From the NCBI RefSeq assembly GCF_037975245.1, contig NC_092570.1, positions 16,409,418-16,473,417 of the forward strand: a stretch of DNA of 64,000 bases, given 5' to 3'. Shown piece after piece: positions 7,355-59,733 of this stretch. Origin of the DNA: Apostichopus japonicus (Eukaryota; Echinodermata; Holothuroidea; Aspidochirotida; Stichopodidae). Positions within the stretch are counted from its first letter, which is position 1. Each line of letters starts with the position of its first letter. Position numbers and translations under genes: made by a program. The notes beneath the pieces were generated by a model. That model worked only from the letters and a program-made list of their open reading frames with translations, ran no database searches and was not told where the DNA came from.

Positions 7355-8980
7355 TTACCGTCCCTGCTTGTTAACTTTGGCATACAACGAGCTGGGGTCC
7401 TCTTCTGTTGAAGATGAAGTGTTTTTGTTTTGTAGGTGTTGGCTGTCTTGAGAGAATTCATCTTCGCTTCTACCGCCCTTATTAATTGAGGCATACAACG
7501 AGCTGAAATCCTCTTCTGTTGAAGGCGAAGAGCATCCTTCTTCCTTTAGATGTTGCTCATCGTCAGAGCATCCCTCCTGGAACCTGGGATTTTCCTGACC
7601 ACCAGAAATGGTTGTGTCTTCTGTTGGTCTCTTGACATCTCCCTCAATCAATGCGTAGACATCATCCCATGAACTTATTGAAGAACAAACTCCAGGTAGG
7701 GAAGCAGTGTCCAAGTCCGAATCTTTCACTGGACAACCAGGAGGAACCAAATCATCACCATGATCCTCATACACTGGATGAATTCTTCCAAGCGTAGTCG
7801 TAACTTCATCTTGATTTGAAATTTTCTTTTCATATGCGTGTCCGCTGACTGATCTATCGTTGTCCGTACGGGTTTTGGATGTGCTAGGGAGGATTCCGTT
7901 GTGATGTTCCGTTCTTCGTTCGCTTCCGTTGCTGAGTAATAGTGTATTGTTGGCATTGCCAACAAGAAAGGCAGAATTTCGTTGCACGGATCCTGCTGAG
8001 AATTCTTCACCTCTCCTCAAATTGTCAGATTTGTATTTCCATCTACATACAACTAGGGCAACCAAAGTAAGCATTATGAATATGCAAATAATGGCCAAAA
8101 CGACTTTCACTATATTTGAAGAAGAAGGAGTGGTTTGATCTAAGTTGATAAAGACAGGCGTAGTTGACATCCCGTTTGTTACTTTTTGAACATCAGAACT
8201 GGGAAATTGTCGACTTGCTTCTTGATTTGGAATGTCAGTCACTGTTGAACTACTACACGAGATGAGGTGACTACTTGAAGTGGCGATGATTGAATCATTT
8301 TGAGATATACCAACTGGCCCTATTGAACACCGCTTAGTACCTCTTCTATGTGGAAGTGTTACAAAACAATCATATCTAACATTTACATCAGTAGACACGT
8401 TGTACCTCACTAAAACTTGTTGTATCTCCTTTCCTGGGCGTTGAATAGTTTCGATATTGCTCAAAACATTGCCCACCGAGGAACCCTCATCGGTCAATAC
8501 CCACTGGCACCCGTTTCCTTGGCTTGCGCAGTAACATGACACTAGAAACCAGTCACCATCCTTGTACGGCTGCCCTACTGTACCGTTGCGAAAACAGCGA
8601 GGACCGTTATCGTTTTGAATGTTCAAATGTAGAGAGGTTACCTCCTTTACCTGTCTCCCATTCCTACAAGTCAACGTAACTATACATTTCAGCTCGCGGT
8701 CACTTATTTTTACCCTCTGAAATGTGTATTGAATACTTGTTTGGTTGTTACTTTCAAAGAGCAACAGTCCCCTGGTATCCTCAATTCGCATGCCATCAAT
8801 CGGTAAATCACCAGCGTACGAACAAATGACTGCAACATCCTCTTCACCAAGAAATATGACTTCATTCACATCGGTATCCAATAACTCAAATGTTATTTGA
8901 CCTGTGCAGGACGACAGAAGGAAGAAATATAAGCAGCAATGGATATGAAAAGTTTTCTCAGTTGCTTTAGTTCCTCCCAT
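7355..8980 (-). CDS. Ig-domain transmembrane receptor with two ITIMs (divergent array member)
   Basis: 541 aa from an ATG. Signal peptide about 1-28. Ig domain 1 about 29-121 (Cys53, Cys99; the F-strand reads SDRELKC, lacking the usual Gly and Tyr). Cys-rich Ig-like domain 2 about 129-222 (Cys129, 149, 151, 158, Trp160, Cys205, 218; N-glycosylation site Asn132). Ser/Thr-rich stalk, transmembrane helix about 291-312, then a long acidic tail. The tail ends in two ITIM matches, S-L-Y-A-S-I (Tyr496) and S-L-Y-A-K-V (Tyr533), embedded in a tandemly duplicated module of about 28 residues, plus D-V-Y-A-L-I upstream. In known families phosphorylated ITIMs recruit SH2 phosphatases; an inhibitory surface receptor is inferred. 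The ligand is unknown. The gene has the same architecture as the array downstream but is clearly more divergent, and its flanks do not match theirs. No intron is needed. Confidence 0.82.
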   Translation of the reverse strand: MGGTKATEKTFHIHCCLYFFLLSSCTGQITFELLDTDVNEVIFLGEEDVAVICSYAGDLPIDGMRIEDTRGLLLFESNNQTSIQYTFQRVKISDRELKCIVTLTCRNGRQVKEVTSLHLNIQNDNGPRCFRNGTVGQPYKDGDWFLVSCYCASQGNGCQWVLTDEGSSVGNVLSNIETIQRPGKEIQQVLVRYNVSTDVNVRYDCFVTLPHRRGTKRCSIGPVGISQNDSIIATSSSHLISCSSSTVTDIPNQEASRQFPSSDVQKVTNGMSTTPVFINLDQTTPSSSNIVKVVLAIICIFIMLTLVALVVCRWKYKSDNLRRGEEFSAGSVQRNSAFLVGNANNTLLLSNGSERRTEHHNGILPSTSKTRTDNDRSVSGHAYEKKISNQDEVTTTLGRIHPVYEDHGDDLVPPGCPVKDSDLDTASLPGVCSSISSWDDVYALIEGDVKRPTEDTTISGGQENPRFQEGCSDDEQHLKEEGCSSPSTEEDFSSLYASINKGGRSEDEFSQDSQHLQNKNTSSSTEEDPSSLYAKVNKQGR

Positions 8981-9440
8981 TCTCAGTAGATGTAAAATGA
9001 CTTTGCCGTAGTCAAGATCTTCCTTACGTACAATGAGTCATGGACGGGACCTCTGCTTAACTTGATTGAAACTCCAGTACGAGAAATATCTTTACTGAAG
9101 TAAACCTTTTTTTCTTGTCTTTCAAAATACGAATTCGGCCTCTCTAGACAGTTATAACAACGCATTAACTTCCAAAACCGGTATTTCACAACTGGTTCAT
9201 TGTATCAAGTGCCATTGTCGTGGGTAGTTTGTTGAACGTATCGGCAGATATACGGATCCTATTATTTGGTTAACAGTCATACAAGTTCTTTAAGATTGTG
9301 CAGTCATGTACACAATCATATTTGTTTGATAAAGACGACACGCCGTGCAAAATAAAGAAAACACCAGTTAGTCATTATTTCAGCCGATTGGTCTACCAAT
9401 TGCTGGTGTGTGCCAAAAAAATAACGCCGAACAACTTTGA
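8981..9440. other. Upstream region of the first receptor
   Basis: Presumed 5' untranslated region and promoter of the minus-strand gene starting at 8980. It does not share the conserved upstream block found before the other receptor genes, and no clear TATA box was seen. A short open frame at 8983-9189 is not supported. Confidence 0.4.
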
Positions 9441-14330: not shown

Positions 14331-15815
14331 CTAGTTGTCTACCTCAGCGTACACGTCGTTCATATCATCACCACAAACCGTTGTTGGTCTACTCCCAGGG
14401 AGAGTGCTCTTCCGTTTAGATTTGTCTATTTTAGCGTAGAGCCTACTTATGTCCTCCTCACCGTCATTATTATCAAGTGCGGATCCTTGATTTCTTCTTT
14501 CATATGGTGTGAGTTGAAAATCACTCGCAACGAAATGAACTTTCCCACTATCATCGTCACGACTTCTTTTCGCACTTCCAGTCTTAGTAACATCTGGTAA
14601 TTTAGTACTTTCTAATTCTCCATAAGTCTCGTCAGGAACAGATGTTACTACTGCGTTCATGATGTTCATGGGTGGAGAATCGTATGTGTGGCTATCATCA
14701 GTAATACCGTTACAGTTGTCATCGCTTACGACACTAGGACTACTATGTATGAAAGCGTTGTTGTAGTGTGGCGTATTGCGATTAGCTTCGTTATCCTCAT
14801 TGTAGGTGTTATTCTTCGTCATATTTTCACCTCTTGCTTTCTGGTCTCGCTTGTTTCTGGCTCCGCACAAAATGAAAACAGTTAAAATGACAATGACAAC
14901 GGTAAGGAGAGTAACTAAACTGCCGGAAATTACGATTACGGTGTAAGATATATTATTGGTATTCTGGTGAACAGAATTATCCGGCATATTAATTTTGCTG
15001 TTGGTGTCTTCCATTTCAGTTGCCTTCGATGTCATTGGATCCAAGAAGATTCCTTCCTTTGACGTTGGTTCTGTAGTTGGAGGTAAGCAAATTTCCGTTG
15101 ACGTCACAGTTTCCATCGAGTTAATAATGATATCAGTAGATGATTCACTCTGTGGTCCAATCTTACATCGATCTGTCGATGCCGATCCACTGAAACAAAC
15201 ATATCTAGTATTAGGATCAGTAGATGATGTGTAATGTATTATAACTCTTTTGATCGTCTTTCCTTTATGGATCACCATTTCATCGAGTGGTAAAAGATGA
15301 GCTGTATTTCCACTACCATTTACTGTGGATGTCCAAGAACACATATCCATCTCCCTACAGTAACATGACAACAATATCCAATCACCAGGTTTGTAGGGCT
15401 CCCCAACGGTACCATTACGAACACATTGAGGACTAGTATCATATTTAACATTAAGATTGAGAGTCGCTACCTCGGTTAGCTCTCTTCCATCCATAGATGT
15501 ATATCTTACGTTACATTTGTACATACCACCATCGCTGATCACCACAGTATTGATTCTGTACTCGACCAAAATCGTGTTTATTTCTTCAATTACGGTATTT
15601 CCATTTTGATCCATAATCGTCACTGTTTCAACATTTAAATTGCCAGTATAAGAACACCGCAAAGTAATATCCGTCTCACCAACGAAAACCACTTCGTTAT
15701 ACTCGCCATCCATTAATTCGAACAATACTTGTGCTTTTCCCAACGAGGTAATGAAAATGTATATCACTATCATATCAAAGAAAATTGTTTTCCTAAATCC
15801 TTCAAATTGATACAT
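14331..15815 (-). CDS. Ig-domain transmembrane receptor, tail type with L-Y-A-K-I
   Basis: 494 aa if translation begins at the ATG at 15815 (MYQFEGF); an upstream in-frame extension begins only with GTG. A at -3 gives good start context. Signal peptide 1-29. Ig domain 1 with Cys54 and D-G-G-M-Y-K-C ending at Cys101. Domain 2 with Cys131, 151, 153, 159, Trp161, Cys207, 217 and glycosylation site N-G-T at 134. Stalk, then transmembrane helix about 291-317. Tail tyrosines: H-T-Y-D-S-P, E-T-Y-G-E-L, R-L-Y-A-K-I (Tyr460) and D-V-Y-A-E-V (Tyr489). These are YxxI/L/V SH2-type sites that do not strictly match ITIM at -2. The domain 2 loop (GSGNTAHLLPL) matches the split gene at 58873-59733, not its nearest neighbour. 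It lies downstream of a TATA-like box at the conserved distance. Confidence 0.82.
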   Translation of the reverse strand: MYQFEGFRKTIFFDMIVIYIFITSLGKAQVLFELMDGEYNEVVFVGETDITLRCSYTGNLNVETVTIMDQNGNTVIEEINTILVEYRINTVVISDGGMYKCNVRYTSMDGRELTEVATLNLNVKYDTSPQCVRNGTVGEPYKPGDWILLSCYCREMDMCSWTSTVNGSGNTAHLLPLDEMVIHKGKTIKRVIIHYTSSTDPNTRYVCFSGSASTDRCKIGPQSESSTDIIINSMETVTSTEICLPPTTEPTSKEGIFLDPMTSKATEMEDTNSKINMPDNSVHQNTNNISYTVIVISGSLVTLLTVVIVILTVFILCGARNKRDQKARGENMTKNNTYNEDNEANRNTPHYNNAFIHSSPSVVSDDNCNGITDDSHTYDSPPMNIMNAVVTSVPDETYGELESTKLPDVTKTGSAKRSRDDDSGKVHFVASDFQLTPYERRNQGSALDNNDGEEDISRLYAKIDKSKRKSTLPGSRPTTVCGDDMNDVYAEVDN

Positions 15816-16130
15816 CTTTCTCCTTTCCACTACCCCTTTCAAGAGGAAATATAGTTTCCAAAACTTCTTCACTTTGTGTCTTCTATAGTTTGTTTAATCC
15901 CATGGGCAGTCGTGCTGACATATACAACCGTCACTTAGTGTTTGGCGAATGCACTTGTACAATGTGTATAGGACTAAACGAGTCGAACGCCGTTTGCTTT
16001 ATGTTCTTCTTGCCATGTCGAGTTGTATGTAGGAAGTGCTGCAGTGATTGCAGCCACTCTGCTCAGTAGGCATGAAGATTGGTGTAACACGTCAATCCTC
16101 ACACAATAGGCATTTCTTTTTTATATACTA
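15816..16130 (-). promoter_or_regulatory. Conserved receptor upstream region with TATA-like box
   Basis: About 300 bp upstream of this ATG are highly similar to the regions before the genes at 25205, 32848, 41680 and 58873. A TATAAAAAAG match on the minus strand lies at about 16117-16127, about 305 bp before the ATG. It is conserved in position and sequence before 26638 and 59733 but altered before 34257 and 43077. Also conserved is AGGAAGTGC (an ETS-like GGAAGT core). Transcription start is inferred, not shown. Confidence 0.55.
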
Positions 16131-16238
16131 TTTCGTAATATGGTGTATGATGTCAAGTGAAGTGTAAAATGTACTCGTTTATACGAACCCCAGCTTTCCC
16201 GTTAGGCCATCAAAGATATCATTGATAAAATATTGTTC

Positions 16239-18900
16239 TTCGATTGTCAGATTTTTGCCCGACGTGACAATCGCTAAGGCGGATTTGAAAATGGTTTCTT
16301 TTTTATTCCGACTCTTGAAAGTACTCATAGATATTGAGCAATAAGTTGTTTAATGAGAGTGGCAGTAAAAAATATTGTTCCAAAAGTCGAATATTGGCGA
16401 CGACTATTCGACATTCTAGGATTACAAAATTTTAAACATTATGTAGACAAACAATTACGTCAAATTAAGAAATGAAGCATATAAATTTAGATTCCGTCTC
16501 TTGAAAGTACTCAAAGATATTGAGCAATAAGTTGTTAAATGACAGTGGTAGTAATAGTATGTTCGCAAATTCGAATATAAGTGACGACTATTCGACATTC
16601 TAGCTTTGAATAAATATTATGTAGACAAACAGTTACGTCAAATTAAGAAATGAAAGTACATATCAATATATTGAAACAAGTTTTACTTAAGCCACGGTGT
16701 TTTTATCTGAATAATAAACCCTCCAGACCCGATAACTATTTAAACAAATTCTTCTGTAATCAATATTTTTTCCACGAACTCCTTTAGTCTAGTCGAAACA
16801 CTTTCCTTCAAATTCATCAGCTTGTATATTTCATATGAAACGAGCAACAATTTGTAAAAGAAATCAAAATAATATCTTTGAGGTCTACAATGAACATTGT
16901 CAAATCCTATATAGAAATGTTTACATAATATGTGCACAAATGTCATTTTCAGTATATATCTTAGGGTAGGAAGTGCAGCCGCATTTTATTTTCCTCTGCT
17001 CGTTAATATAAGTCTCATTGCAAAGTAAGTGATAATATACTTAAGATTTTACTTATCCCCGGTTAGTGCTTTCCATGAGTAATTGTAAGCAACGACCAAA
17101 CAAAAGTAGTTTGCTATATAGACTTATGTACAGCGGACAAAATCAGGTAATAACTTTAAATCTACAAGGGACCAAATGTTAAAGAAGAGGTAGAATAATC
17201 CAGTTCCATGTTTTGTTTATGATACGTCTTGTTTTATTAATGCGTGGATGTTCATCGGCAATGTTCTGAATGAATACAACAATTTGTACATGTCTACAGA
17301 GTGTTTCTTCTGAAATGTATATATGATGAAAGTGTGTTATAGTGATGATAAGACTGCATGAAATTCATTGGAATATAAAATGTTTGCTGAGCCTTCTGTC
17401 GATTTGATTTTGATTTTCAGAACCATAGAATGGGAATATGGTGGTGGAATTTTCCGCTATAATAATGGTATTGCCGTCACATTGATAAATTACCATACTA
17501 CTTTTAATTACTGCATGATCGTTAATGTTTATACAACCCAACTAGTATCTAGTTGTCTTGGTTTTGCTATACCGATCAACAAAAATTATACAATCTGTGA
17601 ACTTGCTATTTTGATGAAAGGTATTTCATATTAAGCATTATTAATAAATCTAAACAGAACATAAAATAAGCTTAATGCATTGTTCCACCGTTTTTTTCAG
17701 AATACAGATCAACAATATAAAGGATTACAAATAGTATCTTTTAATTGTAAAAAAAAAGTTGTTTCAATCGATTCGATGCTTATGTGATTATAATTGTAAG
17801 AGAAATATAAGAAGAGAAATCTATAAATATTGATTTATTAAAAACAAAACCTTTATTTATACCGAACCCGTAAATACGTTTATCTCGTTTATGTCTCTTT
17901 ATATTAATAACCATTCTTATGTAGAAGCGCAGGTTATATCAAAGACGAATGGCTTAATTCTTATCCTTAACCTTTGGAAATAATGAAACATTTTGAATAT
18001 TTCGTGTTTGCTTTGTAAAGTATTAATCTAGTATACTTCTATTAATAAATGTATAATGGGATGATCTACCTGCATGCCACTGTAAATATGTTTTTTCTGG
18101 GATGAATAAAGCTTTCTAGATAACAAGAACTGTCTTGAAACCATACTGATTTATAAAGGTCTTCAGTACCCCCCCCCCCCCACACACACACACAAGTATG
18201 GATGACATATTACTTAAAATCGCTTCAAATGTGCCTTTTGAACCATCTTTGCAAGGTATACTTACAAGTCAAACACATGGACAGTTTGTGTATATAAATA
18301 TATATATATATATAATATATATATATATATATACATACATATATATATATATATATAGCAGTAATAGCAGTGTAGTTCTCAATTGGTGCAGAGTTAAAAT
18401 GATATATGTGTAAACCCGCTATTCCATTGCGTTGTAACTCGGAGCTTCACGCACACAGTGAGTTCTTTCACTGCGGCGATCATCAGGCAACTGAATCTTG
18501 CAATGACGCTTATTTCCTTATTGGGATATCGAAGGATTGTGAGGTGAAACATGGATATGTTAATTAAGGTCAATAAAGACAATGTGTAAATTAGTAGCAC
18601 AACGGTACTTTATTAGGCTTTAGTCGGGATACTCCCTAATAAATACAAACTAAATAAACTACACACTAATAAGTAATATTTGTTTTGCGTTGTTTGCTTT
18701 TTATTTAATTCCTCTGTACAATGTGTTTTCTATCTGATTTGATTTGTGAAACTGTTCGACAAACCCCTGTTTTTTTTTTTTTTTTAATTATACTCCCCTC
18801 TCCTTCATTGCCATCTTCAAATTATTTCGTTATTTCTGCACTTGTACTATTTAATGTTGTAGGAGAACCTAAACGAAACGACACGAATGAACACGGTGGT
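16239..18900. repeat. Inverted copy of the B and C blocks inside the A block
   Basis: 16239-18290 is the reverse complement of the B block seen at 38143-40280 and 62687-64000, including the stretch at 16740-16946. It is followed by a (TA)n tract (18292-18357) and the inverted C block (18360-18890; compare 23280-23590, 52260-52580, 62100-62400). The left junction falls right after TTGTTCTTCG and the right junction just before TGAAATTCC. In sister units those two pieces are separated only by GGCATGCACCGA. The frames at 17368-17634 (+) and 18394-18600 (-) recur in the other B and C copies but are not supported as genes. Confidence 0.82.
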
Positions 18901-23011: not shown

Positions 23012-23019
23012 CTACTAGA

Positions 23020-23596: not shown

Positions 23597-23640
<44 letters not shown>

Positions 23641-25204: not shown

Positions 25205-26638
25205 CTAGTTATCTTTATTTACCATATCGTACTCTGTGGTAGATACTGATATATTACCAGGGACGCTACTATCCCATTCAGACTCATTAACTGTATAGTA
25301 AGGCATATCTTCGTCGTCATTGGTATCAAGAATGGGTTCTCGGTTCCCCGAATGAATCGGTTTGCTTTCAACACTACGAACCATTTTGCTTTCTTCAAGG
25401 CGTCCACTCAAGATTCCGATCTTACCAGTATGCCGTTGCGATTGCTGAGGACTATCTACTTTTGTGTAGTTGTCATCAGGTAGAGATGTTTCCACTACAT
25501 CCCTCATTTGCATCGATGGAGAATCGTATGCGTGACTATTATCATTAATGTCCTCATACGTTACGTTATTATCTCTGAAAACATCAGTAATTGTGCGTTG
25601 GTAGGTACGGTTGTAATATGGCGTATTGTAGTCAGCTTCGTGTTTATCATTCGGAGTGGTGTGCTTCGTCTTCTTATCATCTTTTGTCACTTTACGGTTC
25701 GGCTCATTTGTTTCCCTGCAAAAACGGTAAACAATTAAAACAACGACAAAGACCACTAATAGACAAACTACAATGACTCCAATGACGGTTACGATCAAAA
25801 CAAGATTTTCATTAACCGTATTCTTTGTGTCTCTGATTTCAGTTACGTTCGAAGTAATTGAGTCCATGAAGGTTCCTTCCTTTAACATTGGTTCTGTAGT
25901 TAGAGGTGAGCAAATGTCCGTTGACGTTACTGTTTCCATTGAGTTAATAATGATATCATTAGATGATTCACTCTGTGGTCCGATCTCACATCGATCTGTC
26001 GATGCCGATCCCCTGAAACAATCATATCTAGTATTAGGATCAGTAGATGATGTGTAATGTACTATAACTCTTCTAATCGCCTTTCCTGTATGGTTCATCA
26101 TTTCATCGAGTGGTGACAAAAGATCTGCTAGTCCACTGCCTCTCACTACGGCAGACCATAAACATGTATCCATCTCCCTACAGTAACATGAAAACAAAAT
26201 CCAATCACCAGGTTTGTAGGGCTCCCCAACGGTACCATTACGAACACACTGAGGACTAGTATCATCTTTAACATTTAGATCGAGCGTTGCTACCTCCGTT
26301 ACCTCTCTTCCATCCATATACGTATATCTTACGTTACATTTGTACAAACCACCATCGCTCATCGCCACAGTATTGATTCTGTACTCGGCACAAATAGTTT
26401 TTATTTCTTCAGTTACGGTATTTCCATTTTGATCCATAATCGTCACTGTTTCTATAGTTAACTTGCCATTATAAGAACACCGTAAAGTCATATCCGTCTC
26501 ACCAACGAAAACTACTTCGTTATACTCGCCATCCATTATTTCGAACATTACCTGTGGTTTTCCCAACGAGGTAATGAAAATGTATATCACTATCATATCA
26601 AAGAAAATTGTTTTTCTAAAACCTTCTAATTGATACAT
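25205..26638 (-). CDS. Ig-domain transmembrane receptor with ITSM-type tail
   Basis: 477 aa from the ATG at 26638 (MYQLEGF); five upstream in-frame codons begin with GTG, so the ATG is preferred. Signal peptide 1-29. Ig domain 1 about 30-124 with Cys54 and D95-G-G-L-Y-K-Cys101. Domain 2 about 130-222 with Cys131, 151, 153, 159, Trp161, Cys207, 217 and glycosylation site Asn134. Stalk 223-278, transmembrane 279-304. Tail tyrosines include Tyr371 (Y-D-S-P), Tyr391 (Y-T-K-V), Tyr447/448 (P-Y-Y-T-V) and the C-terminal Tyr470 in T-E-Y-D-M-V, which fits the ITSM consensus T-x-Y-x-x-V/I. In vertebrate receptors ITSMs bind SAP-type adaptors or phosphatases; such signalling is inferred here. It is most similar to 32848-34257. 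The AATAAA in its last codons could double as a poly(A) signal. Confidence 0.83.
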   Translation of the reverse strand: MYQLEGFRKTIFFDMIVIYIFITSLGKPQVMFEIMDGEYNEVVFVGETDMTLRCSYNGKLTIETVTIMDQNGNTVTEEIKTICAEYRINTVAMSDGGLYKCNVRYTYMDGREVTEVATLDLNVKDDTSPQCVRNGTVGEPYKPGDWILFSCYCREMDTCLWSAVVRGSGLADLLSPLDEMMNHTGKAIRRVIVHYTSSTDPNTRYDCFRGSASTDRCEIGPQSESSNDIIINSMETVTSTDICSPLTTEPMLKEGTFMDSITSNVTEIRDTKNTVNENLVLIVTVIGVIVVCLLVVFVVVLIVYRFCRETNEPNRKVTKDDKKTKHTTPNDKHEADYNTPYYNRTYQRTITDVFRDNNVTYEDINDNSHAYDSPSMQMRDVVETSLPDDNYTKVDSPQQSQRHTGKIGILSGRLEESKMVRSVESKPIHSGNREPILDTNDDEDMPYYTVNESEWDSSVPGNISVSTTEYDMVNKDN

Positions 26639-32847: not shown

Positions 32848-34257
32848 CTAGTTGTCTTTATTTACCATATCGTACTCTGTGGTAGATACTGATCTATTAC
32901 CAGGGACGCTACTATCCCATTCAGACTCGTTTACTGTATAGTAAGGCATATCTTCGTCGTCATTGGTATCAAGAATGGGTTTTCGGTTCCCTGAAGGAAT
33001 CGGTTTGCTTTCAACACTGCGAACCATTTTGCTTTCGTCATGGCGTCCACTCGAGCTTCCGATCTTAACAACATGCCGTTGCGATTGCTCAGGATTATCT
33101 ACTTTTGTGTAGTTGTCATCAGGTAGAGATGTTTCCACTACATCCCTCATTTGCATCGATGGAGAATCGTATGCGTGACTCTTATCATTAATGTCGTCAT
33201 ACGTTGCGTTATTATCTCTGAAAACATCAATAATTGTGCGTTGGTATGTATGGTTGTAATATGGCGTATTGTAGTCAGATTCGTGTTGATCATTCGGAGT
33301 GGTGTCCTTCGTCTTCTTATCATCTTTTTTCACTTTACGGCTCGACTTATTTGTTTCCCTGCAAAAACGGTAAACAATTAAAACAACGACAAAGACCACC
33401 AATAGACTCACTAAACTTACTCCAATGACGATTAACCTGTTTTGAGGATCAATCATTTTAGTTACCTTTGAAGTAGTTGAGTCCACGAATATTCCTTCCG
33501 TTGACACTGGTTCTAAAGTTGGAGATGAACAAACGTCCGTTGACGACACTGTTTCCATTGAGTTAATAATGGTATCATTAGATGATTCACTCTGTGGTCC
33601 GATCTCACATCGATCTGTCGGTGCCGATCCACTTAAACAATCATATCTAGTATTAGAATCAGTAGATGATGTGTAATATACTATAACTCTTCTTATCGCC
33701 TTTCCTTTATGTATCACCATTTCATAGAGTGGTGGCAAAGGATCTGCCAGTCCACTGCCTATTACTGTGGATATCCAAACACACGTATCCATCTCTCTAC
33801 AGTAACATGACAACAACATCCAATCACCAGGTTTGTAGGGCTTCCCCACAGTACCATTACGAACACATTGAGGACTATTATCATCTTTAACAATTAGATC
33901 GAGAGTCGCTACCTCCGTTACCTCTCTTCTATCCATACATGTAAATCTTACGTTACATTTGTACATACCACCATCGCTGATCGCCACACTATTGATTCTG
34001 TACTCGGCAAAACTCGTTTTTATTTCTTCAGTAACGATATTTCCATTTTGATCAATAATCGCCACTGTATCAACAGTTAAATTGCCAGTATAAGAACACC
34101 GTAAAGTAATATCCGTCTCACCAACGAACACCACTTCATTATACTCGCCGTCCATTAATTCGAACATTACTTGTGCTTTTCCCAACGAGGAAATTGAAAT
34201 GTATATCACTATCACTTCAAAGAAAATTGTTCTTCTCAATCCTTGTAATTGATACAT
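32848..34257 (-). CDS. Ig-domain transmembrane receptor with ITSM-type tail
   Basis: 469 aa from the ATG at 34257 (MYQLQGL). Signal peptide 1-29. Ig domain 1 with Cys54 and D-G-G-M-Y-K-Cys101. Domain 2 with the same seven Cys/Trp positions as its paralogs; the F strand reads RYDCLSG. Shorter stalk than 25205-26638, transmembrane about 274-296. Tail: A-Y-D-S-P, N-Y-T-K-V, P-Y-Y-T-V (about 439/440) and ITSM-like T-E-Y-D-M-V (Tyr462). Its tail is nearly identical to those of 25205-26638 and the split gene at 53960, which suggests recent duplication or conversion. Its upstream region lacks the TATA-like box seen in three sister genes. Intact reading frame throughout. Confidence 0.83.
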   Translation of the reverse strand: MYQLQGLRRTIFFEVIVIYISISSLGKAQVMFELMDGEYNEVVFVGETDITLRCSYTGNLTVDTVAIIDQNGNIVTEEIKTSFAEYRINSVAISDGGMYKCNVRFTCMDRREVTEVATLDLIVKDDNSPQCVRNGTVGKPYKPGDWMLLSCYCREMDTCVWISTVIGSGLADPLPPLYEMVIHKGKAIRRVIVYYTSSTDSNTRYDCLSGSAPTDRCEIGPQSESSNDTIINSMETVSSTDVCSSPTLEPVSTEGIFVDSTTSKVTKMIDPQNRLIVIGVSLVSLLVVFVVVLIVYRFCRETNKSSRKVKKDDKKTKDTTPNDQHESDYNTPYYNHTYQRTIIDVFRDNNATYDDINDKSHAYDSPSMQMRDVVETSLPDDNYTKVDNPEQSQRHVVKIGSSSGRHDESKMVRSVESKPIPSGNRKPILDTNDDEDMPYYTVNESEWDSSVPGNRSVSTTEYDMVNKDN

Positions 34258-41679: not shown

Positions 41680-43077
41680 CTAGTTGTTTTTATCCACCAT
41701 AGCATACGGAGTTGTAGATACTGGTCTATTGCCAGGGACGTTGCTTTTCCGTTTGGTCTTGTCTATTTTTGCATAGAGCATACTGAAATTATCCTCCTCG
41801 TCAGCTTTATCATCAACAATGGCTTCTCGATTCTCTAAAGGAATCGGTCTACCTTGCAAATCACTGCCAACAGCCCGAGCCACATAACTTTTACCATGGG
41901 TGCCAATCGAACTCATTTGAGATAGCTTAGCTTGATCTACCTCTGCGTAATTGTCGTCGGGTAGAGATATGACATCACTCCGCTTCATAGGCGGGGAATC
42001 GTACGTGTGGCTAACATCATTTGCAATATCTTCAGGACTTGGTTGTTGGTAAGCTCCATTTAAATGAGTCCCATTAATGTAGTCAGTTTTGTAATTATCA
42101 TTCGCCCTTTTATCATCTTTCACTTTACGGTTCGCCTTTTTTCTTCCTCCGCAAAAAATGAAAACAATAAGAAAAACAACCACGACTGCTAAGAGACCAG
42201 CTGCACTGACGCCAATTACTATGACAATAACAAAAGAATTATCGTTATTCTGCGAATCATCCATTGCAGGTGTATCTTTAGTTGTAACCTGTACAGTCGT
42301 CTTCTCTAAGATGATTCCATCGTTTAATGTACCATCTGTAGTTAAAGATGAACAATCATCTGGGGACGTCGCTGTTTCTATTGAGTTAACAATGATATCA
42401 TTACATGATTCACTCTCTGGTCCGATCGTACATCGATCTGTCTCTGCCGATCCACTGAAACAATCATATCTAGTATTAGAATCAGTAGATGTGTAATGTA
42501 CTATAACTCCCCTAATCGCCTTTCCTTTATGGATCACCACTTCATCGACTGGTGACAAGAAAAATGCAGCTGTACTGCCTATGACTGTGGATGTCCAAAC
42601 ACACGTATGCATCCCTCTACAGTAACATGACAACAATATCCGATCACCAGGTTTGTAAGGCTCCCCTACGGTACCATTACGAACACATTGAGGACCAGTA
42701 TCATGTTTAACATTAAGATTGAGAGTCGCTACCTCGGTTACCTCTCTTCCATCCATACATGTATATTTTACGTTACATTTGTACATACCACCATCGCTAA
42801 TCGCCACAGTATTGATTCTGTACTCGGCAAAAATCGTTTTTATTTCTTCAGTTACGTTATTTCCATTTTGATCCAAAATCGTCACTGTATCAACAGTTAA
42901 ATTGCCATTATATAAACACCTTAATGTAATATCCGTCTCACCAACGAAAACCACTTCGTTATACTCGCCGTCCATTATTTCGAACATTACTTGTGCTCTT
43001 CCCAACGATGAAATTAAAACGTATATCACTATCACTTCCAAGAAAATTGTTCTTCTCAAACCTTCAAATTGATACAT
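41680..43077 (-). CDS. Ig-domain transmembrane receptor with L-Y-A-K-I and ITSM-like motifs
   Basis: 465 aa from the ATG at 43077 (MYQFEGL). Signal peptide 1-29 ending GRAQ. Ig domain 1 with Cys54 and D-G-G-M-Y-K-Cys101. Domain 2 with the conserved Cys/Trp set and a different loop (GSTAAFFLSPV), one residue shorter before RYDCFSG. Stalk, transmembrane about 282-308. The tail combines both types seen in the array: H-T-Y-D-S-P, N-Y-A-E-V, M-L-Y-A-K-I (Tyr435) as in 14331-15815, and the C-terminal T-P-Y-A-M-V (Tyr458, ITSM match) as in 25205-26638. It is the most intermediate member. The upstream block is conserved, but the TATA-like box is altered. Confidence 0.83.
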   Translation of the reverse strand: MYQFEGLRRTIFLEVIVIYVLISSLGRAQVMFEIMDGEYNEVVFVGETDITLRCLYNGNLTVDTVTILDQNGNNVTEEIKTIFAEYRINTVAISDGGMYKCNVKYTCMDGREVTEVATLNLNVKHDTGPQCVRNGTVGEPYKPGDRILLSCYCRGMHTCVWTSTVIGSTAAFFLSPVDEVVIHKGKAIRGVIVHYTSTDSNTRYDCFSGSAETDRCTIGPESESCNDIIVNSIETATSPDDCSSLTTDGTLNDGIILEKTTVQVTTKDTPAMDDSQNNDNSFVIVIVIGVSAAGLLAVVVVFLIVFIFCGGRKKANRKVKDDKRANDNYKTDYINGTHLNGAYQQPSPEDIANDVSHTYDSPPMKRSDVISLPDDNYAEVDQAKLSQMSSIGTHGKSYVARAVGSDLQGRPIPLENREAIVDDKADEEDNFSMLYAKIDKTKRKSNVPGNRPVSTTPYAMVDKNN

Positions 43078-43906
43078 CTTTCTCCTTTCCACTACCCCTT
43101 TCTAGAGGAAATATAGTTTCCAAAACTTCTTCACTTTGTGTCTTCTCTACTTTAATCCCCTGGGCAGTCGTCCTGACAAATACAACCGTCACTAAGTGTT
43201 TGGCGAATGCACTTGTACAATGTGTATAGGACTAAACGAGTCGAACGCCGTTTGCTTTATGTTCTTCTTGTCATATCGAGTTGTATGTAGGAAGTGCTGC
43301 AGTGATTACCACTCTGTTCATCAGGCATGAAGATTGGTGTAACGTGTCAATCCTCACACAATAGAAATTACTTATTTCGTTATATATTAATTCGTAATAT
43401 GGTAATGATGTCAAGTGAAATGTAAAACGTACTCTTTTATACGAACCCCAGCTTTCCAGTTAGGCGATCAAAGATATCATTGATCAAATATTGTTCTTCG
43501 GCATGCACCGATGAAATTAATATGGGGGGGGGGGGTGGGGTGGGGTGGTTTAAGCACTGTATAATGATGTATTATTTATGTGGAAAGTAATATCTTTGTC
43601 TTATCTTTGTCAAAGCTTATGAAGGAATAGCACAGAAAGATCGAAACTACAAATCAAGGCATAAAACGTATCGGTACTCGCTTGCTAAGTATATTTCCAT
43701 GAAATTATAATATTAGCCTACCAGCTCGAATTTATTATAATATTTATGCAGATATTTGGATTCTTACCACTATTCTAAATTTACCGTAATTAAGAAGTAA
43801 TCAGCAACTTGTTTGATTGTATACATGCAAAATTACCCGGGCCGTCTTCAATCGCAATGCCTTTTAAATACACAAGGGTTTAATATAGGCTTGCTGTTAT
43901 GTTGAC
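43078..43906 (-). promoter_or_regulatory. Receptor upstream region and start of A block
   Basis: The first about 300 bp match the other receptor upstream regions; the TATA-like segment is changed to TATATAACG on the minus strand (near 43375). A G-run near 43524 starts the A block. 43907-43914 (GCAATGTG) is the left target duplication of the hAT element. Confidence 0.45.
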
Positions 43907-47378: not shown

Positions 47379-48189
47379 TAAACGATATGAAATCTTCTTT
47401 TATTGTATTACTCTCCTTGTGGTAATACCTCAAACATACCGAGAGCTGTTCAGTTGAAGATATATCTGTTGTTTCATCCGCCATTATGGTGTAGAAACCA
47501 GACTCTTTCACACGGTTTATGATTTTCTCTTTTATTTCTGCTCCAACACAACTAATTATTTGATTCTGGATATCTCCAGATGTATAACAGGCGTTTCTTG
47601 GAGCACTAACAATCTGTTCTCTTAGTTCCGTATCCCCAGATTCAATTCGGTACCGTAAAAGACGCCTGAAATTACCTTCCCCGTCTTTCGTTTCGTCAAC
47701 ATCCATAGGTCCGCTATCATCTCTGCCTCTGAGAGCTATGTTGTTCTGACCACAAAAAATCACTGTTTTAACAAGTGGTTCAAGTCGCTTTCTATTCTGC
47801 TTACATACCTTCTCATGATGGGAATTCATCGATTTGTAGACATTTGTGCTCTTGTGAGAATTTGAGAGAAATTCGTGACATCTACATGCCGCATATTTGT
47901 GATATTCAGTATTAATATGTTTATTGAGATCACCTGTAGCACCAGTAATTCTATCATACCTGGTTAATGCTTTCGTTACTAATTTACCAAGAGTAGCATC
48001 CGTACGGAAGTGGGTCTCATGTATCCCAACTAATACACAGGCTTTACAAAGAATTCCACCAAATGTTTTACTATATGCAAAGTCAGAAAACTTATCAAGA
48101 TGACTTTGGCGCAAATACCGTTTGGTGCCATCTTTCCTGCAGGAGAATGGCCACTCAAAACCTGCTTGTCCTTTCCACTTTGTTTTCAA
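47269..48189 (-). pseudogene. hAT transposase, TTF zinc finger and DUF4371 start (frame 2)
   Basis: Central part of the transposase. A TTF-type zinc-finger region (WPFSCRKDGTKRYLRQSHL, GGILCKACVLVG, LNKHINTEYH) is followed by the start of the DUF4371 RNase H-like core with FYTIMADETTDISSTEQL, which holds the first catalytic Asp. The frame opens after a stop at about 48220 without an ATG (its first codon is TTG), so it must be joined to the upstream frame by a frameshift or splice. Confidence 0.85.
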
Positions 48190-48638
48190 TATGTATGCTT
48201 TTGTAAAATCTGTACCTTAGGTTTGCCCAATGAAAATTTGCCAATATCATAATCAGGTGACATGCTAGAGCTACCTAGTATGATAGGTCTAGGAGTATCC
48301 ATTAGGCCTATTGGTTGTGGCGGTTTCTCAATAATTCCTGTAGCTAAAGTTGATGAATCAAAGGAAGTAGAAGGCTCTTGATTGGCAGATGCGTTTGGAT
48401 TTGAGGATGATGTTCCTTTCTCGTTAGAAGCAACTGTTCTTTCTGGTCGTGTTTGGGTTGACGATGGAATACATGGTTCAGCAGACTCAATTGGTTTGAA
48501 ACTAAGTGTTGTCTGTTTCAGTCTTACTGTTTTATTTGGTGGTGGTTTGTCAGTACAGTCACTGATACTTCCTCTTCTAAACCGTGGGGGCCATCTACCA
48601 TTGACTCTGTTAATTGAGATGATAGATAAAAGGGACAT
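48186..48638 (-). pseudogene. hAT transposase, N-terminal disordered region (frame 1)
   Basis: Starts at the first ATG (48638); the longer open frame to 48704 begins with GTG. It encodes a Ser/Thr/Pro-rich segment with LKQTTLSFKP near the start, as often precedes the zinc finger in ZMYM1-like hAT transposases, and ends in YDIGKFSLGKPKVQIL. It stops 4 bp into the next frame. No catalytic residues here. Confidence 0.6.
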
Positions 48639-50499: not shown

Positions 50500-53959
<3,460 letters not shown>

Positions 53960-54519
53960 CTAGTTATCTTTATTTACCATAGCGTACTCTGTGGTAGAAA
54001 CTGATATTTTACCAGGGAGGCTACTATCCCATTCAGACTCGTTTACTGTATAGTAAGGCATATTAAGTTTCTCTTTGTCGACATTAGTATCAAGAATGGG
54101 TTCTCGGTTCTCTGAAGGAATCGATTGGCTTTCAACACTACGAACCGTTTTGCTTTCGTCATGGCGTCCACGCGAGCTTCCGATCTTAACAACATGCCGT
54201 TGCGATTGCTTAGGACTGTCTACTTTTCTGTAGTTGTCATCAGGTAGAGATGTTTCCACTACATCCATCATTTGCATCGATGGAGAATCGTATGCGTGAC
54301 TATTATCATTAATGTCGTCATACGTTACGTTATTATCTCTGAAAACATCAGTAATTGTGCGTTGGTAGGTATGGTTGTAATATGGCGTATTGTAGTCAGA
54401 TTCGTCTTTATCATTCGGAGTGGTGTCTTTCGTCTTCTTATCATCTTTTTTCACTCTACAGTTTGGCTTATTTGTTTCCCTGCAAAAACAGTAAACAATT
54501 AAAACGACGACAAAGACCA
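53960..54519 (-). pseudogene. 3' half of split receptor: transmembrane end and ITSM tail
   Basis: Encodes the second half of the transmembrane helix (VFVVVLIVYCF) and the complete cytoplasmic tail, with A-Y-D-S-P, N-Y-R-K-V, P-Y-Y-T-V and C-terminal T-E-Y-A-M-V (ITSM match). It is separated from its 5' half (58873-59733) by the CACTA-like insertion. The frame is open upstream into the element, whose end supplies an in-frame ATG seven codons before the join (MSTCVFC). A tail-only product is therefore conceivable but unsupported. The tail frame has no internal stop. Confidence 0.88.
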
Positions 54520-57500
54520 CACAGAAAACACAAGTACTCACAAATGCGAGTAAACTTAGATCCCTGATTTTACTATCCGTGGTAGTACTTATACTTGCCG
54601 GTATTGAGTAAAGATACTGATTCGGAGGAGTTGATTTACTAGTTTAAATGTTTACAATTACTAGGCTGATAGTGAAAGTACTGCTTTTAGTGTTGTCCCT
54701 GATTTCACTAACCAAAGTAGTAACATTACATGGTAAGGCATGTAAACTTACTAATACATATTTATAGTACTGATATGGTAGTTAGTAGATATACACAGAT
54801 GAGCGATGATAACAAACAGAAATTTGGAGTTTATTTCTCTTTTTATTGAACTTGTAAAGAACACTTTCATATTCCAACATCTCAAAACACAAATACCATG
54901 TTTTTGATAATGAAGTTCTTAAGATACATATGATAATAAACTGATGCTGTACTTCCCCATGACATACTAAACCTCTGACAATAATCAAGCAGCAAAATGC
55001 ATGAGAAATTACGATTAACTTCGAGAGAAACACAACTGCTACTGTGGTAAAGTCAGTTGACAAAATCCATCTTCTTAGGTTCTTATAAATATTGCAATAG
55101 GTCTCTAAAGTTTTTTGGCAACTTTTACTTTAAAAACAGCTACTTTATTCACTTAAACTCAATGAGACCTCACCGACACATTTGCAAGGACAAACCCTAT
55201 AAACTGAATTAGGTGAAATACAAGAAACACAGATAAATGACTAATACAGATAAATAAACAACCATGAACAAAACACAGAACAAAATGTTTAAAACACTGA
55301 TTTCTTTAAGTATGCACATCCTGCAATGTGATACTGTTAGCTTTTGATTTAAACAAATGCAATAACAGAAAACTTATATGTATTTTGGAACGGTTGAATC
55401 AGTAATGCTAATCATTTGGTAATCAATCAAGCTTAAAAAAATCAATTAATTCTGGCCTTGACGTATCTTTACTTTCGCGATCAAATCAGGCAAGCTCAGA
55501 CTGAAACACTAATGCTGGTCTCTATGTAAACCAGCCCTTGCTTTATTTTGATGGTATAATTTAACCACCATGACAAATCACACAAATACCGACCTCTTCC
55601 TTTGCAATGAATCTCTGAACATGCTTTGAGCTTTCCATCCTGTTATCCCACAAAGAGATTTCTTCTGATTATCCAAAATTCAGAAAAAGTCCCCATTCTA
55701 CGTCAAAACAAATAGAAATGTCTTCTCTCGACAAGTACATAAGTGATCTAATTAAGGCAAGAAATATTGCAACAGTGTGCAACAAAAATGTAAACGTAAC
55801 GAACACAAAAAGATAAAAATCCTCAGGTAGCAAAGCTTTGCATCATATAAACATTAAAAGTCTTTATATTTTGTTACGAAAGTTGCAACAGATCTTGGGA
55901 TCTTTTTGGATTTAAAGCCCAATAACAAATCCAGGAAAAATAAAGTCTTCTTACTTTTCTTTGGGAAGCTGATGTTGAATGTATAAAAGGCGACAATCAA
56001 GCATTCAAACCCTTCCATGATTGAGTCTACTTCACACACAACTTTGTTCTCCGCCTTAATCTGAATGTGTTTTGCACTTAGGTGATTCGGTCCTGATCCA
56101 ATGAGACATGGCGCTGAGGACAGAGGCCCGACGTTGTCAATCTTTCTGAACCACTGGTGTGGAGATAGTTCTTGCCATGTTTCCTTCTTATATGTTTTTT
56201 TAGAGAATTGACAATACTATATGAGGCTTCACAATGATTAATTCCACAGAAAACTCTGAAGTTCTGTTCTCCTGAGTGGACCATTTGAAGATGGTTAAGA
56301 AGTTTAATTCGAGTTCTGCTCTCATATCTACAATGGCAGCATCTGAAGATGCCTAAATGCTGTGTGTACACATTTTCTGAATCAGTAAGACTGAAAGAAG
56401 AAGAAGCCATTCTTAGTTGAAGACTTTAGAAAGTATTTCAGTATTGTCACAATGGACTCTTCCAGCTAAAATTTTCAATCAAATCAGGGAGGCCAATTAA
56501 GAATGTACCAACTTTAATGTGAAGAAATCTTGCTTGCCCTTGAAGTACAGCACCTGTTTGAAAATGAGAGGCATAAAAATGTTTTGCATTAAACAAAGCA
56601 AAGGCACTACCATGGAAAGTTAAACTCTAATTCAAGTGCTTTCATAATGTGCAATTTAACAGAAACAGTTCATTAGTGTTGAACAGGAGGCCAGGTTTAG
56701 TTAGCAAGGAAATCCTCCTAAGGAAATCTTCGAAGTCAGTGACTCTTTGTTGGTAACTGTAGTGAAATATATTTATCATGACAAGATAAGGACACAAATG
56801 ATTGTCTGGATTTGCAAGAAAAGGCAAGCAGGTTTTTTAAATTCAAAGTGGCTGTCAAATTAGGCACCTTGATGTGTAGTACACCATGTGCACCACATGT
56901 CTATGCCAATAATATAAAACAGCCACTATAATCTAGAAACACAGGCCTGTACATAGTACATGTATCTTACAGTACTCAATTACACTTGAACACTGACCTG
57001 TATGTGTACCTTATTTACTAGGGTAAGTCTATGGTTAAAGCTGTACACTCATCAATCCAGATGATTCATATTAACATTAACATTTTAGAACGATTTATTT
57101 TCATAAGTCTGCTTGCACGATTAACATACTGCGCAGGCTTGAAAAGGTTATATCAGCTGTTCAAATTTCCCTGTGGTTTGCTGTTGCTACATGTGTTGTA
57201 CTAATTATACTACTCCGTACACCACTGCACATAAAAAGTTTACTGTATCAAACCAGTCCGTACCACTACCAGTACATGTGCAGCACGTGTGCATGTAGAA
57301 AATGTGAGGAGCGGAACTGTGGGCTATTGTGTGAGTTTATACGTACACAGCCTTACCGCGGATTGAGACGATAATCGTTTCTTGCAGTTAAATTTCGTCT
57401 GAATTAGTTGTAATTTTGTTGATTCTACAGTTGTTTTGTTATGGTCCTGAGCAATTATGACTTGAAATTTGTTAAAATAATCATAAAACTGTCTATCATA

Positions 57501-58872
57501 TGATTAAGTGCAACTTGTGATGGAAGGTAATAGGCTACATTACATATGTTCATGAAAATCTATATCTAGCGTTTTCTGGTATTTTACTTTTGCAAATCTA
57601 GCGTTTTTTGGGCATATGCCGCTGGTAACGCTGACTACATTGTTCAAGCCACAGTAGTTACCACACCAATCACATCATAATAATGTGTCCAATACTTTCA
57701 CATACTACTTTTATAACTTGGGCAGTACGTGTAGGCCTAAGCTGGCGGGCTTATTACAGAATCACTTATAATATGCACTTGGATCCTACATACGTTCAAT
57801 GCAGTGCATTGCTGCAGTGCAAAGGAAACCTCAAACTAAACGTAAATTGCTTAGGCCTATGGAGATTGCTTCCATAGCATACAGTACGCCAGTAGTCATG
57901 TGATGATCATGTTGTTAGTAATATTTTTCCGCCATTACCTTTGACTATTTGGAAAGGCGAAATTCGGTTGTTGCCGTGTATTTCCGCAATAATACTAACT
58001 TTGCTACACTAGTTGGGCTGTTTGTTGTAAGCTGACTTTGTTTGGACGAAATGACTGGTTCCAAAATCAGGCATATCAGTGCAAAAGCTTTGTGTTGGGT
58101 TAACAACGTTGTAGTTGAACCATGACTCAATACGTTAGGCTAACCGCAGAGTTTAACACGAGGCCTCTCCCGCTAATGATCAGTAAGATGTTCAGAATAA
58201 TGTGATATAATTGCATCAAAATTAGAAAATATTGATTTTAACTACCTAAAAATAACATACATCATAGTACTAAACAAAACACATGACAACTTACCTTGAT
58301 TTTCCAAAATATCAACAAATATGTCCATAAATTAGAAGGAGCAGTTGTGTCTTATCGTGCATGTCTTGGTCGTTGCGTCGCTCTGGTACTACATAGTACT
58401 AACTGAATGGCATGGGCAGTACTTCTACGAAAGGCAGTTCGCACAATTACGAGGCGTGTAGTTTAATCGCTATGATCGCTATGTAGAGTTGTAGAATCAC
58501 TAGTTGATCACTCTTAATACTTGGAAACAATCTGTAAATGTACGTGTCACGTTAGTATTTCGACCAACTACAACATTCTTAATCTACTCACGATGAGTAA
58601 CATCGTTCACATCGTTTATTGTAAGCATTAAGGAAGTATCGAAACTCAATGCATGAGTCAGTTTACGAATTAGATCAATTAGTTGACTACCTTACAATTC
58701 GGCGTCTAGCATCTGTACACATTGCCCCATGTATTTTCAGTACTGATTAAAATTTGCAAGTACATGTATGCGCATATTTTGTGAAATAAGAGTCGCACTA
58801 CGAGTTGAGGTGCATCCCTACTCATTAAAGGTATAACATCTTACTAACAGACGAGTAAGCAGATTTTCTGTG
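54520..58872 (-). mobile_element. CACTA/EnSpm-like DNA transposon inserted in a receptor gene, 4.35 kb
   Basis: Boundaries come from comparison with the intact gene at 32848-34257. Both ends begin CACAGAAAA (left CACAGAAAACACAAGTACTC, right, reversed, CACAGAAAATCTGCTTACTC), and CA is duplicated at 54518-54519 and 58873-58874. CAC termini and a 2-3 bp duplication fit the CACTA-Mirage-Chapaev group. Inside is a two-zinc-finger frame (56078-56410) of the type I associate with animal EnSpm-like elements. No transposase core was recognised in the remainder (54540-56070 and 56420-58870), so it is probably non-autonomous or has small exons I cannot join. Confidence 0.75.
56078..56410 (-). CDS. Two-C2H2-zinc-finger protein or exon of the CACTA-like element
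   Basis: 110 aa from an ATG. Finger 1: Cys24-x2-Cys27-x12-His40-x4-His45. Finger 2: Cys55-x4-Cys60-x12-His73-x4-His78, with the linker HSGEQNFRVFCGINHC. The CX2C then CX4C pair with an F-x-V-x-C-G-I start resembles the N-terminal fingers of animal EnSpm-type element proteins (family resemblance from memory, to be tested). The last 30 residues are unremarkable, so this may be the first coding exon of a spliced transposon gene. Confidence 0.6.
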   Translation of the reverse strand: MASSSFSLTDSENVYTQHLGIFRCCHCRYESRTRIKLLNHLQMVHSGEQNFRVFCGINHCEASYSIVNSLKKHIRRKHGKNYLHTSGSERLTTSGLCPQRHVSLDQDRIT

Positions 58873-59733
58873 CACCAATAGACTAACTAAACTGACTCCA
58901 ATGACGATGAACCTGTTTTGGGAATCGCTCATTTCAGTTACATTCGAAGTAGTTGAGTCCACGAATATTCTTTCCGTTGACATTGATTCTGAAGTTGGAG
59001 GTGAGCAAACGTCCGTTGACGTCACTGTTTCCATTGTGTTAATAATGATATCGTTAGATGATTCACTCTCTGGTGCGATCGCACATCGACTTGTCGATGC
59101 CGATCCACTGAAACAATCATATCTAGTATTAGGATCAGTAGATGATGTGTAGTGTACTTTAACTTTCCTAATTGCCTTTCCTTTATGGATCACCATTTCA
59201 TTGAGTGGTAAAAAATGAGCTGTATTTCCACTGTTTACTACTGTGGATGTCCAAGAACACGTATCCATCTCTCTACAGTAACATGACAACAATATCCAAT
59301 CACCAGGTTTGTAGGGCTCCCCAACGGTACCATTACGAACACATTGAGGACTATTATCATATTTAACATTTAGATCGAGAGTCGCTACCTCCGTTACCTC
59401 TCTTCTATCCATACATGTAAATCTTACGTTACATTTGTACATACCACCATCGCTCATCGCCACACTATTGATTCTGTACTCGGCATAAATCGTTTTTATT
59501 TCTTCAATTACGTTATTTCCATTTTGATCCATAATCGTCACTGTTTCAATAGTTAAATCGCCAGTATAAGAACACCTTAACGTAATATCCGTCTCACCAA
59601 CGAAAACTACTTCGTTATACTCGCCATCCATTAATTCGAACATTACTTGTGATTTTCCCAACGAGGAAATTGAAATGTATATCATGATCACTTCAAAGCA
59701 AATTGTTCTCCTCAATCCTTGTAATTGATACAT
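58873..59733 (-). pseudogene. 5' half of split receptor: ectodomain and half transmembrane
   Basis: From the ATG at 59733: signal peptide, Ig domain 1 (Cys54, D-G-G-M-Y-K-Cys101), Cys-rich domain 2 (loop NSGNTAHFLPL) and stalk, to the first 13 residues of the transmembrane segment (FIVIGVSLVSLLV). The frame then enters the CACTA-like element, adds about 15 residues (HRKSAYSS...) and stops at 58825, giving 302 aa. The ectodomain is intact, so the transcript could give a weakly anchored or secreted form; this is inference. Domain 1 resembles 32848-34257 and domain 2 resembles 14331-15815. Confidence 0.88.

Follow-up and report, generated by a model that had tools for sequence, protein, structure and literature searches.

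A tandem array of single-exon immunoglobulin-type receptors in the sea cucumber Apostichopus japonicus, with alike ectodomains on distinct tyrosine-bearing tails

Introduction

Clusters of immunoglobulin (Ig)-superfamily receptors with immunoreceptor tyrosine-based inhibitory motif (ITIM)-type tails are in print for two invertebrates, as FcoR of Botryllus and Alr of Hydractinia (PMC12065747, PMC11999971). The FcoR proteins (Fester co-receptors, fuhc locus of Botryllus schlosseri) are type I receptors with a V-type Ig domain, a sushi domain and two C2 Ig domains, encoded beside their fester partners; their long tails carry an ITIM, a hemi-immunoreceptor tyrosine-based activation motif (hemITAM) or a core YxxI/L/V, differing between copies (PMC12065747). 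For the cnidarian Alr family of the allorecognition complex, 41 members have been reported (PMC11999971). Its Ig-like receptors are encoded in a cluster, and motifs of the ITIM/ITAM type are present in some of them. Among vertebrate paired receptors, gene conversion keeps the ectodomains of CD300A and CD300C alike over divergent tails (PMC12447643). LILR/KIR and SIRP are also paired receptors with such logic; vertebrate paired-receptor genes are multi-exon, and Alr genes contain introns. Here we describe a tandem array of receptor genes (G1 to G6) in a 64-kb stretch of Apostichopus japonicus DNA (hereafter the window, meaning the whole stretch analysed). We lean modestly towards reading it as a gene-converted, paired-receptor-like holothurian family of type I receptors with a single coding exon, in which shared heads are coupled to different phosphotyrosine tails.

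The array shares with FcoR the clustering, the type I Ig-superfamily plan and the long tails with motifs that differ between copies. Unlike FcoR, the sea cucumber receptors have two Ig domains only, with no Pfam sushi match, so that the FcoR domain set (V-Ig, sushi, two C2-Ig) was not found; no partner gene was seen, the enriched motif is YA[KE][VI], and the single-exon coding sequence (CDS) is apparently a further difference from FcoR. By description the array is also like Alr, which differs in its introns. With CD300A/CD300C the array shares alike ectodomains, attributed to gene conversion, over different signalling tails; vertebrate paired receptors, however, set a canonical ITIM against an activating partner, and no sequence relationship to the sea cucumber family was detected. 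The SLAM family and PECAM-1 resemble it in their Ig domains and TxYxxV/I-type motifs, and the PECAM fold is among the fold neighbours of G5, but TxYxxV occurs only in G3, G4, G5 and the G6 tail and again no sequence relationship was detected. The modularity of the family, mosaic heads on distinct tail classes, is our main new result; invertebrate ITIM-type Ig clusters were already known. The designation of the array as a candidate undescribed system in the initial annotation of the window is tempered by these precedents (PMC12065747). It stands for echinoderms as far as the searches reach: literature searches for receptors of echinoderms or holothurians, one of which returned matches without the taxon word, gave no description of such a receptor cluster with immune-type tyrosine tails among the matches listed.

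Results

Architecture of the receptor array

The minus strand of the window contains five intact single-exon receptor genes (G1–G5), a gene split by 4.35 kb (G6) and two decayed pseudogene tails. This inventory follows from a list of open reading frames (ORFs), tblastn of six translations against the window, which found the G6 tail and the decayed tails, and inspection of reading frames; intronless refers here to the coding sequence only. The five full-length ORFs, of 465–541 codons each, share one plan: a signal-like N-terminus, two Ig-type domains (D1 and D2), a stalk, one transmembrane (TM) helix and a long tyrosine-bearing tail. Their tandem Ig domains, single TM helix and intracellular tail place these proteins among type I Ig-superfamily receptors; the fold was predicted for G5 only, and that of D2 is by prediction only. 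The initial annotation had correctly recognized, in five long ORFs and one half ORF, receptors with two Ig domains and a tail of the phosphotyrosine type that are arranged in tandem and duplicate. Its count of six genes or gene halves captured the five intact genes and the split state of G6, but overlooked the other half of G6 (53963–54502) and the two degraded tails. G1 is the divergent member, 31% identical to G2 in the alignment. The intact genes are as follows.

7355..8980, minus strand: G1, divergent receptor, 541 aa (ORF, alignment, motif scan)
14331..15815, minus strand: G2, receptor, 494 aa, tail class B (ORF, motifs, tail tree 86/91, identity)
25205..26638, minus strand: G3, receptor, 477 aa, tail class C (ORF, motifs, tail tree, identity)
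32848..34257, minus strand: G4, receptor, 469 aa, tail class C (ORF, motifs, tail tree, identity)
41680..43077, minus strand: G5, receptor, 465 aa, tail class A (ORF, motifs, tail tree, identity, structure model)

Shared heads and separate tails

The DNA of G2–G6 was ~90% identical from about −430 to the stalk, whatever the tail. Four of the six scanned pairs showed a dip to 0.71–0.82 over a patch of D2 (see below), and identity dropped to ~0.6 near the stalk-TM border in G2–G3, G2–G5 and G3–G5; for G3–G4 it was at least 0.74 throughout the scan. The shared part includes a conserved block upstream of the coding sequence.

15816..16242, minus strand: upstream (promoter/5′ untranslated region) block of G2, 427 nt, conserved (alignment)
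26639–27066 (G3), 34258–34664 (G4), 43078–43500 (G5), 59734–60160 (G6): copies of this block, 83–95% identical

The tails fall into three classes: A (G5, P0001, P0002), B (G2, P0005, P0006) and C (G3, G4, G6, P0003, P0004, P0007), where P0001–P0007 are database models, either alleles or paralogues of G1–G6, with P0003 corresponding to G6. In the tail tree, from which the N-terminal half of G6, P0002, P0008 and P0009 were omitted (P0002 being classed by identity), class A (G5 + P0001) was supported at 98/98 and class C at 99/100, with weaker support for class B (86/91). TM-plus-tail identity was 0.860 within and 0.420 between classes (21 and 45 pairs, in which P0003 and the G6 tail half represent the same tail twice), whereas the corresponding values were 0.842 and 0.839 for D1 and 0.775 and 0.771 for D2 (16 and 39 pairs). 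Permutation of the class labels over 11 rows equalled the observed separation in 1553 of 5000 trials for the ectodomain and in none of 5000 for the tail. The ectodomain tree was star-like, with 9 of its 13 inner branches open; one of the few supported pairs, and the sole supported one across copies, joined G2 of class B to G6/P0003 of class C (87/87).

Between G2 and G5, synonymous divergence (dS) rose from 0.096 in D1 through 0.180 in D2 to 0.940 in the tail, a pattern that simple duplication without exchange would not yield. Furthermore, equal splits were adjacent 16 times among 47 informative sites, against 6.2 expected (3 of 20000 permutations), indicating mosaic tracts. Between classes the tails appeared constrained, with ratios of nonsynonymous to synonymous divergence (dN/dS) of 0.38–0.53 at dS 0.79–1.14 (7 pairs). 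Gene conversion would circulate the upstream block and the ectodomain among loci while the stalk, TM helix and tail remain as classes A, B and C; the same recognition heads would thereby be joined to different signalling tails.

Tyrosine motifs of the tails

The motif scans of four tails are listed below.

7484–7501 SLYASI, 7373–7390 SLYAKV and 7646–7660 VYALI, minus strand: G1; no YDSP
G2 tail, minus strand: YDSP, TYGEL, LYAKID and C-terminal VYAEVD; core sites only
G3 tail, minus strand: VTYEDI, YDSP, NYTKV, YYTV and C-terminal TEYDMV
41992–42003 YDSP, 41938–41952 NYAEV, 41761–41778 LYAKID and 41695–41712 TPYAMV, minus strand: G5 tail

Motif frequencies were compared with shuffled sequences over 13 tails, with G3 (near G4; one strict ITIM), the G6 halves, P0001–P0007 and P0012 omitted as near-duplicates. 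YA[KE][VI] was strongly enriched, with 18 occurrences against 0.07 expected (17 against 0.02 with [DNE] next), and was found four times in the single tail of P0017 and three times each in those of P0015 and P0013. Enrichment was also observed for TxYxx[IV] (5 against 0.61), YxxP (11 against 3.67) and the core Yxx[ILV] (35 against 13.9), but not for YxN (9 against 7.46). Canonical ITIMs, (S/I/V/L)xYxx(I/L/V), number two in G1, one in G3 (VTYEDI) and one in the G6 tail (VTYDDI), with none in G2, G4 and G5.

The S-x-Y-x-x-I/V or T-x-Y-x-x-V motifs that the initial annotation ascribed to all copies are thus distributed unevenly: SxYxx[IV] is in G1 only, TxYxxV is in G3, G4, G5 and the G6 tail, and G2 has neither. 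The Y-D-S-P that it called conserved is present in G2–G5 and the G6 tail, but not in G1. The LYAK[IV][DN]K block, which is changed to PYYTVNE in class C, and a C-terminal site of the YAx[VI] type recur, as does YDSP within A. japonicus G2–G6. An acidic stretch followed by [LT]-Y-A-[KS]-[VI]-[DNE]-K aligns in G1, G2, G5, P0001, P0005, P0006, P0010, P0013, P0015 and P0017.

Two other functions could be assigned to such sites. The YxxPhi sites (Phi, hydrophobic) might be hemITAM-like, recruiting Syk or adaptors rather than phosphatases in activating or phagocytic receptors, as the core motif and the acidic residues upstream of the LYAKIDK tyrosine would allow; one Botryllus FcoR with a core motif has been read as activating (PMC12065747). 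We find this doubtful, in that the several spaced sites, the TxYxxV of G3, G4 and G5 and the true ITIMs of G1 more closely resemble docking sites for phosphatases or SAP, and the TM cores of G1–G5, inspected by eye and edges aside, lack charged residues for an adaptor. Alternatively, the Y-x-x-hydrophobic sites could be endocytic sorting signals of the AP-2 type instead of SH2 docking sites. The core Yxx[ILV] alone would also suit that role. However, the preferred residues are Ala at position +1, [KE] at +2 and, in many cases, [DN] at +4, and the sites occur in two to four copies in several tails and are accompanied by YxxP, none of which AP-2 requires, and we consider sorting unlikely as their function.

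Predicted fold and variability of the ectodomain

Structure was predicted for G5 alone.

42700..42993, minus strand: G5 D1, Ig domain, residues 29–126 (model, fold matches)
42388..42699, minus strand: G5 D2, Ig-fold domain with extra cysteines, residues 127–230
42538..42606, minus strand: G5 hypervariable patch in D2, residues 158–180 (per-site diversity)
42148..42240, minus strand: G5 TM helix, residues 280–310 (helix in model, hydropathy)

The model, with a predicted local distance difference test score (pLDDT) of 83–94 across residues 41–130, suggests the two-Ig fold expected from the initial annotation, D2 by prediction only; the Pfam families Ig_2/Ig_3 matched D1 under the cut-off. The best 60 of 78 PDB profile matches were headed by neuroplastin (E 9.5e-5), sodium channel beta-2 (3e-4, over the TM stretch) and NCAM (6e-3), with no LILR, KIR, CEACAM or SLAM chain among them. 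The fold neighbours of the G5 model included PECAM-1, NCAM2, neuroplastin and MAG and, equally, NKp46 and LILRB, at 9–20% identity in the listed alignments. The VIA-align rows named another fold for neither model, an outcome that excludes nothing. Sub-cut-off Pfam matches to TMEM154, Protocadherin, RIFIN and others, mostly over the TM stretch, were dismissed as noise.

These comparisons bear on two further explanations. Orthology to the vertebrate leukocyte receptors (LILR/KIR, CEACAM or SLAM) would fit the common overall plan and the predicted fold near LILRB and NKp46, but the identity in the fold alignments is as low as stated above, none of these families appears among the best 60 of 78 PDB profile matches, and the named relatives, in searches of limited sensitivity, are holothurian only; we regard it as highly improbable and set membership of these families aside. 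The profile results likewise lend no support to the suggestion in the initial annotation that the cluster might be ancestral to the vertebrate ones. The receptors could also serve in self/non-self recognition or homophilic adhesion, in the style of Hydractinia Alr or PECAM/neuroplastin, with ectodomain diversity used for allorecognition or adhesion and the tails tuning adhesion. Precedent from colonial invertebrates (PMC12065747), PECAM-1, NCAM2, neuroplastin and MAG among the fold neighbours and neuroplastin as the best profile match favour this idea, which we hold to be as questionable as the activating one, given that NKp46 and LILRB are equally among those neighbours. Sea cucumbers are, moreover, solitary.

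Diversity was analysed without P0003 (= the N-terminal half of G6) and the G6 tail half. It was concentrated in residues 158–180, with a mean per site of 0.429, against 0.159 in the remainder of residues 29–223 (11 rows); the best 20-residue window was matched in none of 5000 shuffles. The patch lies on the C/C′ side of predicted D2. Over whole domains, the dN/dS values for the 10 pairs of G2–G6 were 0.26–0.82 in D1 and 0.64–1.72 in D2.

Relatives in public databases

The nearest named proteins to G5 are from A. japonicus itself: BSL78_20070–20072 and BSL78_18118–18120 (six models on two contigs), together with P0003. The closest public match to G5 was 82% identical. By sequence comparison, the window evidently holds receptor copies that are missing from the public A. 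japonicus annotation. The locus-tag order on both public contigs, A-C-B, is that of the window (G5, G4/G3, G2). Holothuria leucospilota, of another family, has relatives in HOLleu_28026, 28033 and 28034, with 24832 on a different contig; the architecture is retained in Holothuria. Protein searches gave six further relatives beyond the A. japonicus and H. leucospilota models, and searches of limited sensitivity found no named relative outside holothurians. The invertebrate origin proposed in the initial annotation is borne out by these relatives, which extend to a second holothurian family, and by the identity of P0003 to G6.

G1 differs from its relative P0012 at 11 of 541 residues. In view of this near-identity, G1 may be a conserved member of the family that does not exchange sequence with the others.

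It could be argued that the array is retrogene-derived, mostly unexpressed and decaying, as its intronless coding sequences, the split copy, the two tail remnants and the dN/dS of class C tails (given below) would allow. The five full-length ORFs, the between-class tail constraint, the few differences between G1 and P0012 and the retained architecture in Holothuria argue otherwise and leave this explanation with little probability.

Six public A. japonicus models (P0001, P0002 and P0004–P0007) start internally, at the Met of MDGEYNEV or MFELMDGEY, and thereby lack the signal-like N-terminus of the window genes; public annotation may obscure that they are receptors. Four relatives have short tails, with no YxxPhi in P0008, P0014 and P0016 and a single one in P0009. 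These four may represent genuine partners with short tails, or else gene models that are incomplete.

A proposed mechanism and the points against it

In the paired-receptor-like reading that we favour, the two Ig domains, most variable on one patch of D2, would bind a ligand, self or microbial. Src-type kinases would phosphorylate tail tyrosines in their acidic context. The disordered tail presents Y-A-[KE]-[VI], Y-x-x-V and Y-x-x-P sites, and the phosphorylated sites might dock SH2 proteins, such as a SHP2/Csw-type phosphatase or SAP-like adaptors and Crk-type adaptors. Docking would modulate how the cell, most probably a coelomocyte, responds, and the tail classes would yield different outcomes. 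The sign of the net signal is the part of which we are least sure: inhibition, as proposed in the initial annotation, is not supported as a fact, although it is a first guess for G1, with its two true ITIMs, and a weaker one for the remaining copies.

Several results weigh against this reading. The strict ITIM, taken at first as a shared feature, was not enriched (5 against 3.51 expected over the 13 tails; 556 of 2000 shuffles), ruling it out as the family-defining motif. Three of the 13 tails (P0008, P0014 and P0016, which may be short-tail forms or incomplete models) lack Yxx[ILV], and the excess of this core per protein was only mild (shuffle p 0.019–0.115 for G1–G5). As the tails are homologous, the shuffles also overstate independence. 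The initial expectation of tail tyrosines conserved among relatives held for the LYAK[IV][DN]K and C-terminal YAx[VI]-type sites, which recur, but tail tyrosines overall showed no more conservation than the remaining residues of the tail (Fisher p 0.13–0.71, four alignments). Positive selection in the D2 patch was suggested by a pN/pS (nonsynonymous to synonymous polymorphism) of 1.33 that was not significant, the bootstrap interval of the difference spanning zero. Class C tails had dN/dS of 0.79–0.93 at dS 0.07–0.09 (3 pairs), indicating little recent constraint. Finally, a recombination test akin to the pairwise homoplasy index was not significant (644 of 2000), so that the case for gene conversion rests on the clustering of tracts and the dS mismatch. 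With that reservation, alike ectodomains and differing tails maintained by gene conversion, as in paired receptors, are what we found.

More tentatively, and with more doubt than conviction, we consider a germline mix-and-match system in echinoderms. Gene conversion would shuffle the upstream blocks and ectodomains of single-exon genes, as a population-wide pool, among a small number of fixed tail classes whose phosphotyrosine code (YAK[VI]DK, YDSP) would be specific to holothurians, individuals differing in how heads are wired to outputs. If true, telling self from non-self, or recognizing pathogens, would have been solved here independently; echinoderms reject allografts. If coelomocytes carry these receptors, echinoderms would share the balance between activating and inhibitory tails that is known in mammals and has been reported in Botryllus and Hydractinia. 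The array would then also provide a natural experiment, in which ectodomains from one pool sit on several types of tail, and its single-exon genes lend themselves to expression and swapping in the laboratory.

The split gene G6

G6 consists of two separated parts and the insertion between them.

58825..59733, minus strand: N-terminal half of G6, with signal-like N-terminus, D1, D2, stalk and start of TM (homology stops at ~58873)
53963..54502, minus strand: tail half of G6, class C, with VTYDDI (canonical ITIM), YDSP and C-terminal TEYAMV (tblastn, reading frames)
54521..58872, minus strand: insertion splitting G6, 4.35 kb, with ends CACAGAAAA.../...TTTTCTGTG

The termini of the insert (CACAGAAAA / TTTTCTGTG) form short inverted ends, and it is likely a DNA transposon. 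The gap was also considered as a spliced intron, which was rejected when inspection by eye found no GT-AG at any of four possible joints. P0003 corresponds to G6, with an ectodomain identical over 190 residues and a tail identity of 1.00 to the separated G6 tail. Since P0003 runs uninterrupted across the insert site, the transposon insertion may be recent or polymorphic, or annotation of P0003 may have bridged it. A C2H2 zinc-finger-like ORF, just under the cut-off, lies inside the insert (56081–56425, minus strand).

Decayed copies and neighbouring elements

Multi-kilobase duplications surround the receptor copies in the self-comparison of the window. The two decayed tails are the following.

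37478–38131: degraded stalk/TM/tail remnant with frameshifts and stops (tblastn, reading frames)
29107–29718: degraded stalk/TM/tail remnant (tblastn, self-comparison, reading frames)

The latter sits inside a 93% duplicate of the segment 37373–39294. A search for N-terminal or ectodomain remnants adjoining the two tails found none that was significant. Within ~700 nt of the stop codon, neither AATAAA nor ATTAAA was present at five of the six loci and G3 had one of each, which is uninformative.

A segment is repeated beside the receptor copies in both orientations at 81–92% identity (16491–18357, 30078–30880, 38487–40229, 52597–53087 and 62597–64000); it may belong to the unit that duplicates, or else be a mobile element that aids recombination of that unit. 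Long TA-rich microsatellites (translated YIYIYI) lie near copies of it, at 52589–52766 and 62401–62672. A hAT-type transposase in two overlapping frames (45870–48216, minus strand; Dimer_Tnp_hAT, DUF4371) is located inside the receptor array. A tyrosine-recombinase fragment (20321–20836, minus strand), with Phage_integrase above and DUF3504 below the cut-off, is a candidate Crypton-like or domesticated recombinase.

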